IMG/VR virus record: IMGVR_UViG_3300009130_001695
Span: 1 to 64,000 of that record
Strand: one strand, 5' to 3'
DNA: 64,000 nucleotides
Source: a virus
Shown here one piece after another: positions 1,459 through 10,230 of the stretch (position 1 is its first letter; the number at the start of each line of letters is the position of its first letter). The notes beneath the pieces were generated by a model. The model saw only the letters and a list, made by a program, of their open reading frames with translations, ran no database searches and had not been told where the DNA came from. Position numbers and translations under genes: made by a program.

Positions 1459-1486
1459 TTCATATTCCAAAAAAATCTGTTATAAT
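1459..1486 (+). promoter_or_regulatory. Possible sigma-70 type promoter for the tmRNA
   Basis: TTCATA (1459-1464) and a perfect TATAAT (1481-1486) are 16 bases apart, close to the host housekeeping consensus. The -10 box lies 13 bases before the first base of the mature tmRNA at 1500, so a short 5' leader would be trimmed. The match to -35 is only four of six. Confidence 0.45.
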
Positions 1487-1585
1487 ACTTATACACTATG
1501 GGGGTGAACTGGATTCGACTGGGTGTCGAGATAGAATTGTGCAAGGGTGTATAAGCAAACACTAAAAGGCTTAAAACAAATAACT

Positions 1586-1621
1586 GCTAACGATAATGTT
1601 GCATTAACTTTGGCTGCGTAA
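1586..1621 (+). other. tmRNA proteolysis-tag reading frame
   Basis: The resume codon GCT at 1586 follows AACAAATAACT, the equivalent of the upstream element that sets the frame in E. coli tmRNA. It encodes ANDNVALTLAA and then UAA. With the alanine from the charged tmRNA the added tag would be A-ANDNVALTLAA. The AND start and LAA end match bacterial tags; terminal LAA is the ClpXP/ClpA degron, so ribosome rescue products would be sent to host proteases. The UAA lies in the loop of the hairpin formed by CUUUG and CAAAG. Confidence 0.9.
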
Positions 1622-1705
1622 GCAATCAAAGCGGGGTTTACGGTTTCCTTGTTATCCAAAACCGTGCTTTAAATTAACACACACACACAAAGGAGGACAT
1701 TTATT

Positions 1706-1903
1706 ATGTCAGAAAATAATAATACAAATACAAGTGGATACGAAATTAGGCAAGGATTGCTACAGCAAGCTCAACGAATTGTAGAGCAAAACGCTCACAT
1801 GCAATTTGAAACAAGCGGCAAGCAAAACTGGACGCCTGTTACTACCGAACAAGTTATTGAAGTTGCAGAGCAACTTAATGCTTTTGTTCAAAAGAAAGAT
1901 TAA
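1706..1903 (+). CDS. Small phage protein encoded inside the tmRNA gene
   Basis: A 65-residue protein (MSENNNTNTSGYEIRQGLL...) lying wholly between the tag/PK1 half and the tRNA-like half of the tmRNA. The site AGGAGG at 1691-1696 is an almost ideal Shine-Dalgarno, 9 bases before the ATG, so this is a translated gene and not a chance frame. Sequence: polar Asn/Thr-rich start, then GYEIRQGLLQQAQRIVEQNAHMQFET and TTEQVIEVAEQLNAFVQ, two helical segments. The GYEIRxxLL pattern resembles small proteins of T4-like marine phages as I remember them; no function is known. Its 3' end is seven bases before the 3' strand of helix H2. It may be expressed from the tmRNA precursor, or its mRNA may be part of the mature RNA. 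Confidence 0.85.
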   Translation: MSENNNTNTSGYEIRQGLLQQAQRIVEQNAHMQFETSGKQNWTPVTTEQVIEVAEQLNAFVQKKD

Positions 1904-1979
1904 AGTTTAACCTTGTATATCACAACCTATTAAAACATTTAGGACGCGGGTTCGATTCCCGCCACCTCCAATTAACATT

Positions 1980-5814: not shown

Positions 5815-6501
5815 ATGAAAGAATATGTAAAAAACTCTTTCAAGAAATCAATGAAAGAAAGAAAAGAATATTATCTTTATGATATTCCTGTTTATATATT
5901 AAATCCATTACCGGATCATCTCAATATGGATCATATTTTAGATGACTTAAGAGAATTGGTTCCTTATGAATTCTTTTCTGGTTTGGATGGAATTTACGTG
6001 GGTGAATTCCCCGAATTAAAGCAAAGAGATATCCATGCCATGTTTAAAGAAGGGGCAATTTATTTATCATCTTTCCAAGATCATCCAAACATTGATGAAG
6101 ATTTAATTGTTGGAAATATAGTACACGAATTAGCTCACTTATTGGAAGACAAATATCATTATGAAATTTATGGCGATGAAGTTATAGAAAAAGAATATGT
6201 TGGAAAGAAAAAAAGATTGCTGGATATTCTAAGAGCAAACGGTGTTTCGTTTCATGGAATGGGAAATCTATTCTTTTCTGATGATATGGTTGACGAATTT
6301 GATGAGTTCTTGTTTAATCATTTAGGATATGACAGTTTATCCTCTTTAACTCCTGGCTTATTCTTATCTCCTTATTCTGTAACTTCTTTAAGGGAATATT
6401 TTGCAAACGGTTTTGAGGAATATATCAACGGAGATTCTAATTACTTAAAAGAAATAAGCCCAGTTTTATTTAATAAATTGGAATTATTTTTGGAGAAATA
6501 A
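5815..6501 (+). CDS. Zincin-type metalloprotease
   Basis: A 228-residue protein with the zinc motif HELAH at residues 104-108 within a hydrophobic IVGNIVHELAHLLED helix. A downstream REYFANGFEEYI (residues 193-204) probably supplies the third, glutamate ligand (Glu194). The HExxH ... REYFA arrangement resembles anthrax-lethal-factor-like/ADP-ribosyl-toxin-associated zincins found in several large phages. No signal peptide is seen, so it should act in the cytoplasm or in the virion. The region between (residues 115-175) carries no recognised domain. The stop is immediately followed by the next start (6502), suggesting coupling. Substrate unknown. Confidence 0.8.
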   Translation: MKEYVKNSFKKSMKERKEYYLYDIPVYILNPLPDHLNMDHILDDLRELVPYEFFSGLDGIYVGEFPELKQRDIHAMFKEGAIYLSSFQDHPNIDEDLIVGNIVHELAHLLEDKYHYEIYGDEVIEKEYVGKKKRLLDILRANGVSFHGMGNLFFSDDMVDEFDEFLFNHLGYDSLSSLTPGLFLSPYSVTSLREYFANGFEEYINGDSNYLKEISPVLFNKLELFLEK

Positions 6502-8983: not shown

Positions 8984-10230
8984 AGAAAGTAATAGTTAAA
9001 GGACCAGCACTTAGCCAGAGTGGATATGGAGAACAAACGAGGTTCATTTTAAGGTCTTTAAGGAGTCAACCAGAGCATTTTGATATTTATTTAATCAATC
9101 TAAACTGGGGCAACACAGGGTGGCTATCGGACGATTCAGAAGAACGTCAATGGATAGATTTCCTTTTGGCCAAAACTATTCAATATAGTTCACAGAATGG
9201 ACAAATGGATATTTCTATCCAGGTTACTATCCCACAAGAATGGGAAAGCCTCGCCCCTTATAATATTGGAGCAACAGCAGGAACTGAAACAACTAAAATT
9301 TCTCCACTGTGGCTTGAAAAGAGCATGATGATGGACAAAATTATCGTCATTTCAGAACATACTAAATATGCATTTGCCAACACCACATATCCAGCTGAGA
9401 TGAACGGGCAACAAATAATTGCCAAAATAGAGTGTCCAATTGAAGTCGTGGGGTATCCCGTTAAAAAAACAACACCGCAAAAAATTGATCTAGATTTAAA
9501 ATATGATTTCAATTTCCTTGCTGTTGGAACGTGGATTGTGAGAAAGAATCTTCCTAACACCATTAAGTGGTTTGTAGAAGAATTTTATGATCAGAAAGTT
9601 GGTTTAATTATTAAAACGAGTACCGCTAAAAATTCATTACGTGACCGCAACCACACTGAAATGACTCTAAAGAATATTTTAGGACAATATGAGGGTAGGG
9701 AATGTGAAGTTTATCTTTTACATGGAGATTTGACGGAGGAGGAAATGTGCGGATTGTATACTCATGATAAGGTTAAAGCTCTTGTGAGCTTGTCTCATGG
9801 CGAAGGATATGGATTACCGATCTTTGAAGCAGTATATAATGGACTACCAGTAGTTTCTCCTGGTTGGGGCGGCCCGCTTGACTTTTTATGTATGCCAGTG
9901 AAGCAAAAAAATGGATCTTTTAAAAAGGTTCGCGCATTCACCGATATTGCCTATGATATTAAACCAATCCAGGATGAAGCTGTGTGGGAGAATGTTCTAA
10001 TAAAAGAATCTATGTGGTGTTATCCTAAAGAGTGGAATTATAAAAAAAGTTTACGCCTCCTCAAGAAAAGTCCCGGTGCATCTAAAGCCCAAGCCAAGAA
10101 GCTTCAAAAATGGGTTTTAGAAGAATTTGAAGAATCAAAACTTTATCAAAAGGTATGTGATTCCGTCTATAAACCGAGCCAAGAGGAAGAAGAATGGAAT
10201 TCAATGTTAAACGAAGTTCAGATGATCTAG
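8980..10230 (+). CDS. Glycosyltransferase, GT-B fold, GT4-like
   Basis: A 416-residue protein. Starts MKKVIVKGPALSQSGYGEQTRF, a GT-B N-terminal glycine loop, and overlaps the preceding gene by ATGA. The C-terminal domain has FNFLAVGTWIVRKN, then SLSHGEGYGLPIFEAVYNGLPVVSPGWGG, the donor-binding region of GT4 enzymes. About 25 extra residues precede the C-terminus. It is similar in design to the preceding protein, so the two may be paralogues adding successive residues to one glycan. Confidence 0.84.
   Translation: MKKVIVKGPALSQSGYGEQTRFILRSLRSQPEHFDIYLINLNWGNTGWLSDDSEERQWIDFLLAKTIQYSSQNGQMDISIQVTIPQEWESLAPYNIGATAGTETTKISPLWLEKSMMMDKIIVISEHTKYAFANTTYPAEMNGQQIIAKIECPIEVVGYPVKKTTPQKIDLDLKYDFNFLAVGTWIVRKNLPNTIKWFVEEFYDQKVGLIIKTSTAKNSLRDRNHTEMTLKNILGQYEGRECEVYLLHGDLTEEEMCGLYTHDKVKALVSLSHGEGYGLPIFEAVYNGLPVVSPGWGGPLDFLCMPVKQKNGSFKKVRAFTDIAYDIKPIQDEAVWENVLIKESMWCYPKEWNYKKSLRLLKKSPGASKAQAKKLQKWVLEEFEESKLYQKVCDSVYKPSQEEEEWNSMLNEVQMI

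Follow-up and report, generated by a model that had tools for sequence, protein, structure and literature searches.

A candidate dual-function phage tmRNA: a conserved protein gene nested in a natural-order tmRNA gene

Can a single phage RNA act both as a tmRNA in ribosome rescue and as the messenger of an ordinary protein? The question is raised by a 64,000-nucleotide stretch of viral DNA (positions 1 to 64,000 of IMG/VR record IMGVR_UViG_3300009130_001695, 71.6 kb; hereafter the window), in which a complete protein gene lies between the two halves of a tmRNA gene. At the level of sequence, the locus is an intact tmRNA gene in natural order that encloses a conserved gene under selection, and natural empty alleles of it exist. 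From this layout we infer one uncut RNA molecule that performs both jobs. The explanation that we consider probable is a compact one-piece phage tmRNA whose linker between PK2 and H2 holds the complete gene, so that one RNA would both rescue ribosomes and encode a protein, and an RNA that stays whole is favoured over one that is cut.

On the plus strand of the window, ARAGORN calls a tmRNA at 1500-1970, and the Rfam model RF00023 matches positions 1500-1973 with model positions 1-374 (103.6 bits, E 2e-39). Because this match is full length despite the insert, the two halves are joined by the covariance model, a check that had been proposed in an earlier note on this DNA. The features of the locus are collected in Table 1. 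The long helix H2 joins the halves, and the pairing of the 5' and 3' domains described in that note is borne out for the 7-bp acceptor and for 1519-1526/1935-1942. A further helix, placed at 1539-1546/1911-1918, is best read as 1542-1546/1911-1915 plus 1537-1541/1921-1925. The G-U third pair of the acceptor is, as read from the gene, an alanine identity element of an Ala-type acceptor. CCA is absent from the DNA at the 3' end of the gene, and the T-loop is normal and contiguous. Both a resume codon and a hydrophobic ...LAA tag are present, and ANDNVALTLAA is also called by ARAGORN in two related tmRNAs without the ORF (L016 and L019). In the alignment of relatives, PK2 is variable in length and retains its stem. 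Four pseudoknots are typical of the tmRNA family but are not essential. The gene had been thought to stand in place of PK2-PK4, a view that has to be given up: PK2 is kept, PK3 and PK4 are found by direct reading and alignment neither in the filled nor in the ORF-less related tmRNAs, and the ORF fills a linker that measures 12-20 nt in the empty form.

Table 1. Positions of the tmRNA and of the nested gene in the window
Feature	Position	Strand	Remarks
Promoter-like site TTCATA-16-TATAAT, TG before the -10 (extended -10)	1459..1486	+	consensus match only
Whole tmRNA gene, natural order, with embedded cistron	1500..1970	+	471 nt; ARAGORN, Rfam
Acceptor stem, 5' strand, pairs with 1963-1969	1500..1506	+	7 pairs, the third G-U
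H2a, 5' strand, pairs with 1935-1942	1519..1526	+	alignment
H2b/H2c, 5' strand	1537..1546	+	pairs with 1921-1925 and 1911-1915
PK1 (1547-1550/1559-1562, 1552-1556/1569-1573)	1547..1573	+	direct reading; conserved in alignment
Tag frame GCT..TAA, ANDNVALTLAA-stop	1586..1621	+	direct reading
H5 hairpin, closes the tag frame	1608..1631	+	direct reading; Rfam alignment
PK2 (1632-1636/1647-1651, 1640-1646/1659-1665)	1632..1665	+	direct reading
Leader: AC repeat, then Shine-Dalgarno AGGAGG (1691-1696)	1678..1696	+	family-specific
Embedded cistron, 65 codons plus stop	1706..1903	+	between PK2 and the H2 3' strand
tmRNA 3' half	1909..1970	+	H2 3' strands, T-arm 1946-1950/1958-1962, acceptor 3' strand, discriminator A1970

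The same arrangement is present in 19 IMG/VR relatives, found among the related contigs that the earlier note had suggested searching, and the filled layout, with the gene inside the tmRNA in uncultured marine phages, thus comprises 20 contigs including the window. The empty layout, the same tmRNA without the gene, is found at 238-253 nt in eight related contigs (L016, L019, L028, L029, L031, L033, L036 and L149); some of the filled and empty contigs are near-copies of one another. A protein search of IMG/VR gave 13 loci, of which L001-L010 are embedded and L011-L013 are free genes; the 5' side of the tmRNA locus is cut off in L002 and L009, and the L009 contig ends inside the tmRNA. DNA-pattern searches with the tmRNA 5' and 3' halves gave further filled tmRNAs (type B) and empty ones, with L025 and L039 being stretches of one contig and L031 and L032 likewise. 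The second, longer ORF type, of 68-69 codons, occurs in L017, L025, L026, L027, L034, L035, L038, L040 and L056, the last from a profile search, and the embedded copies as a whole span 63-69 codons. RF00023 spans both halves with 100-119 bits in empty and 79-114 bits in complete filled tmRNAs, and the tags of those empty tmRNAs that ARAGORN calls are ANDNVALTLAA, ANDNVALSLAA or ANDNVAISLAA.

A filled and an empty allele can be compared directly in L017 (filled) and L016 (empty), whose identity is 95.2% in the 891 nt compared on the upstream side and 96.0% in 2925 nt on the downstream side. Within the tmRNA, nt 174-414 of L017 take the place of nt 174-190 of L016, and the two tmRNAs differ mainly by a 16-nt linker versus a gene cassette of about 240 nt. 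Next to the tmRNA there is a second variable site: the interval from tRNA-Gly to the tmRNA is about 1.3 kb longer in L016 than in L017. Exactly one copy of the gene, embedded, is present in each of the 18 filled records tested, and no copy is present in seven empty records, many records of both kinds being fragments. Since some empty linkers (GCTTTATTATACC...) resemble the end of the ORF leader (...TTTATTATG) and look like its remnants, we would guess that some of the empty tmRNAs are secondary gene losses.

The ORF itself stands as first described, with 65 codons at 1706-1903 and AGGAGG nine bases before its ATG, and it shows coding selection. Pairwise dN/dS of the embedded type A ORF is mostly 0.03-0.23; between L005 and L007 (type A) there are 12 synonymous changes and between L026 and L027 (type B) five, with no non-synonymous change in either pair. 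Length differences among embedded ORFs preserve the frame. Judged by these substitutions, purifying selection acts on the embedded protein gene, and recurrence in 20 contigs together with coding selection argues that the layout is not due to chance. The earlier note had regarded absence of the ORF from otherwise normal relatives as evidence against a real nested gene. Such relatives do exist, eight in number, but the artefact reading does not follow from them: because, wherever it occurs, the ORF is unbroken and constrained by purifying selection, and the surrounding tmRNA is intact, it is better described as an accessory, selected insertion.

The AlphaFold2 model of the protein is a two-helix hairpin (pLDDT 81), and the embedded protein is accordingly described as a predicted helical hairpin. 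The model matches no fold in the PDB or among viral structures, no solved homologue was found, no PHROG or Pfam family could be assigned, and no endonuclease similarity was found; a match to DnaI_N (E 0.0012) appears in one member only of the protein family. The window's own tmRNA and ORF show no similarity to GenBank phages, and the only distant matches of a divergent free family member are hypothetical proteins of Pseudomonas jumbo phages. A profile search brought the family to 80 loci, mostly free genes, on viral contigs of up to 252 kb. Nearly all of these free-standing relatives, which are found in other marine phages, have an AC-repeat leader. In five of the free copies (L075, L079, L102, L111 and L117), an ordinary tmRNA of 337-372 nt lies 0.2-2.3 kb upstream on the same strand, with tags such as ANNNTHYEYALAA and ANNNYHFESARLAA. 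Both sides of the free gene in L050-L117 carry structured repeats, CCG-ct-GGCAGAC-CGG-ttaaa-GTCTGCC and CCG-ca-GGGAGGCA-CGG-gttacagg-TGTCTC, which resemble small H-type pseudoknots, have no match in Rfam and, in the two records for which their positions were determined, are few per genome and lie near the gene.

A scan of 787 kb gives 158 distinct sites for the leader, ACACACA-(0-12)-GGAG; 157 precede a family gene recognised by pattern, and the last precedes the family gene of phage PA5oct. The 787 kb consist of loci selected for the gene, and a check of whole records therefore matters: there, the tight form of the leader is found at the family gene, with few other matches, one of them a chance match within a coding frame (at 9211 of G005, a phage without the ORF). 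The window contains a single such leader, that of the tmRNA, against 0.1 expected. The AC-repeat leader is a candidate regulatory or translation-enhancing element that extends from marine phages to the Pseudomonas jumbo phage PA5oct. As it is nearly exclusive to the gene family, the guess that the protein binds the RNA leader and autoregulates is worth testing. In a tree of 55 proteins, built on few columns and to be read with caution, embedded types A and B branch apart within the family, and their descent from one clade is rejected by an AU test (p=0.0027). Since the embedded copies come from two subfamilies, the tmRNA site appears to have been filled twice, or its gene swapped or refilled, which would make at least two events.

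Pairing across the ORF was compared in 18 distinct joined sequences, which are closely related. All seven acceptor pairs are intact in every one of them. The H2a pair 21-200, the second pair of the 1519-1526 strand, is T-A in 11 and A-T in seven, and three T-stem pairs are altered on both sides in a compensatory manner; the H2a pair 22-199 is mismatched in 7/18. Because the relatives are close, this covariation across the ORF amounts to few independent events. Without constraints, the 471-nt RNA already folds with the acceptor and H2c formed. Among 13 filled RNAs, imposing the long-range tmRNA pairs carries a penalty of no more than 4.4 kcal/mol without altering the accessibility of the Shine-Dalgarno region (mean unpaired 0.44-0.74), and with so small a cost and no loss of access the rescue and messenger jobs are compatible as far as folding goes. 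With the H2 3' strand lying 7 nt beyond the ORF, a ribosome finishing translation there would run into it and might upset the folding. In the tmRNA 3' half of L002, L007 and L010, the T-loop is AGTCGGTG instead of TTCGATT, with the T-stem maintained through compensatory changes. Either these tmRNAs have an uncommon type of T-loop or their 3' end has been exchanged; the deviation could signal impaired tmRNAs, and to that extent counts against the dual-function explanation.

Under the one-RNA explanation, an upstream promoter would give rise to a single transcript, whose ends would be trimmed and to which CCA would be added as for any tmRNA. The promoter-like site of Table 1 sits directly upstream of the tmRNA, and a TATAAT-like box is found near the equivalent place in most relatives. 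The RNA would fold through the acceptor and H2 irrespective of loop length and would work in trans-translation with the SmpB of the host, which is assumed because no SmpB gene was found in 15 related phage records, all possibly fragments. Ribosomes would initiate directly at the AC leader and Shine-Dalgarno sequence in the loop, and a protein of 63-69 aa would be made from the same molecule. The gene would have entered with its own leader from the free-standing phage gene family, at least twice. A long loop would be tolerable because PK2-PK4, according to the statement in PMC4236655 that cites Nameki 2000, serve overall folding, are interchangeable and can be replaced by single-stranded RNA.

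Other explanations differ in what becomes of the RNA. The transcript may be a precursor that is translated while nascent and then cut by a nuclease in the AU/AC-rich linkers, leaving a natural-order two-piece tmRNA joined through H2 and the acceptor; the ORF segment would then be lost or set free as mRNA. Two-piece tmRNAs do function elsewhere, where the permuted form is cleaved by tRNA-processing enzymes and its pieces stay together through base pairing (PMC11915505), and the linker is free to vary in length, with about 50 nt extra in L040. We nevertheless regard this precursor as a minority possibility, since no conserved cleavage signal was seen and the circularly permuted form is absent, the RF04321 match being weak at 56.8 bits.

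It is distinctly unlikely that the ORF is expressed from its own internal mRNA and that the tmRNA is a permissive landing site, tolerated when filled or partly disabled. The gene family is free-standing elsewhere, the odd T-loops of three filled members fit a disabled tmRNA, and a perfect TTGACA-18-TATAAT, a sigma-70 promoter with a 12/12 match, lies after PK2 and ahead of the ORF in L040. This promoter lies, with a short inverted repeat, in the extra stretch that precedes the ORF leader inside the tmRNAs of L034 and L040 (L040:4167-4196), and such an additional promoter suggests that expressing the ORF is worthwhile even apart from the tmRNA; the one-RNA explanation, too, draws support from it, since it is to be expected if ORF expression matters. 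The window, however, has no internal promoter comparable to that of L040, and the filled members keep both tmRNA halves and the tag frame. A decayed or misassembled tmRNA, with the ORF arising by chance or through an assembly chimera, is very improbable: the contigs are metagenomic and at least one ends within the tmRNA, but the layout recurs in 20 contigs from many samples with two ORF subfamilies and coding selection, the family has homologues outside tmRNA, and the empty relatives score well with RF00023.

Dual-function bacterial RNAs, regulatory RNAs that also encode a protein, unite in one molecule a structural or regulatory task and an ORF that is translated, as the RNA of this locus would; the locus differs from them in that its RNA part is a tmRNA, which already carries a tag frame and is itself taken into the ribosome. 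With the standard one-piece tmRNA (RF00023) it has in common the gene order, G-U acceptor, T-arm, H2, PK1, resume codon, ...LAA tag, H5 and PK2, but it is without PK3/PK4 and holds in its linker a Shine-Dalgarno-led cistron of 63-69 codons, which encodes a protein with no relation to the tag. Permuted two-piece tmRNA (RF04321) is known in some marine phages such as Melnitz (PMC9004378), and also in alphaproteobacteria and cyanobacteria. The marine phage setting and a segment between two halves are common to both, but in the window the 5' half precedes the 3' half and the intervening segment is a conserved gene. A permuted form was rejected, as the window has no true 3' domain upstream of the 5' domain; the natural order first proposed is supported. 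The weak RF04321 match, at 1409-1621, uses unrelated upstream sequence and extends into a tRNA-Gly gene in several relatives. Group I intron tmRNAs, some with homing endonuclease genes (PMC11915505), likewise hold a protein gene within a tmRNA gene, but their intron lies in the T-loop and is spliced out, whereas the gene in the window lies in the PK2-H2 linker. A group I intron was also rejected: Rfam finds no intron family at E<=1 in 1400-2100, and the T-loop is uninterrupted.

A 2025 survey of 97,179 tmRNA sequences recognises standard, intron and permuted as the three major gene forms (PMC11915505). A natural-order tmRNA with a selected, Shine-Dalgarno-led gene in its loop matches none of them and would be a fourth form. 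The earlier note knew of no tmRNA with a translated cistron inside it, and in the open-access literature we likewise found none described inside a natural-order tmRNA; the only genes that we found reported there within tmRNA are the homing endonucleases of introns and, in the spacer of one permuted form, a tRNA gene. If the explanation is true, a tRNA/mRNA hybrid doubles as an ordinary mRNA. The nested gene makes the tolerance of a tmRNA to translation of its own body directly testable, with natural empty/filled pairs usable as controls. We also consider, as a rather doubtful extension, that the two jobs are linked to each other: as a stable molecule, the mature tmRNA would be the protein's long-lived mRNA, and ribosome traffic in the loop (initiation at the AC leader and Shine-Dalgarno sequence, termination beside H2) or passage through the stalled ribosome would alter expression of the protein, by which the phage would sense or control ribosome rescue. 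For annotators, the locus holds traps. The tag that ARAGORN gives for the window, VDTKLGKDCYSKLNEL, is an artefact drawn from within the ORF, the weak RF04321 match is equally misleading, and ARAGORN overlooks several tmRNAs of the embedded-gene type.

The remaining genes of the window include PhoH, a baseplate wedge protein, an exonuclease and many sugar-nucleotide genes, a content consistent with a T4-like myophage. A 228-aa protein encoded at 5815-6501 has a HELAH zinc-protease-like motif, with Pfam metallopeptidase matches below threshold only. A long series of glycosyltransferase, aminotransferase, epimerase and phosphoheptose isomerase genes at 7583-28491 apparently constitutes a phage surface-sugar pathway.
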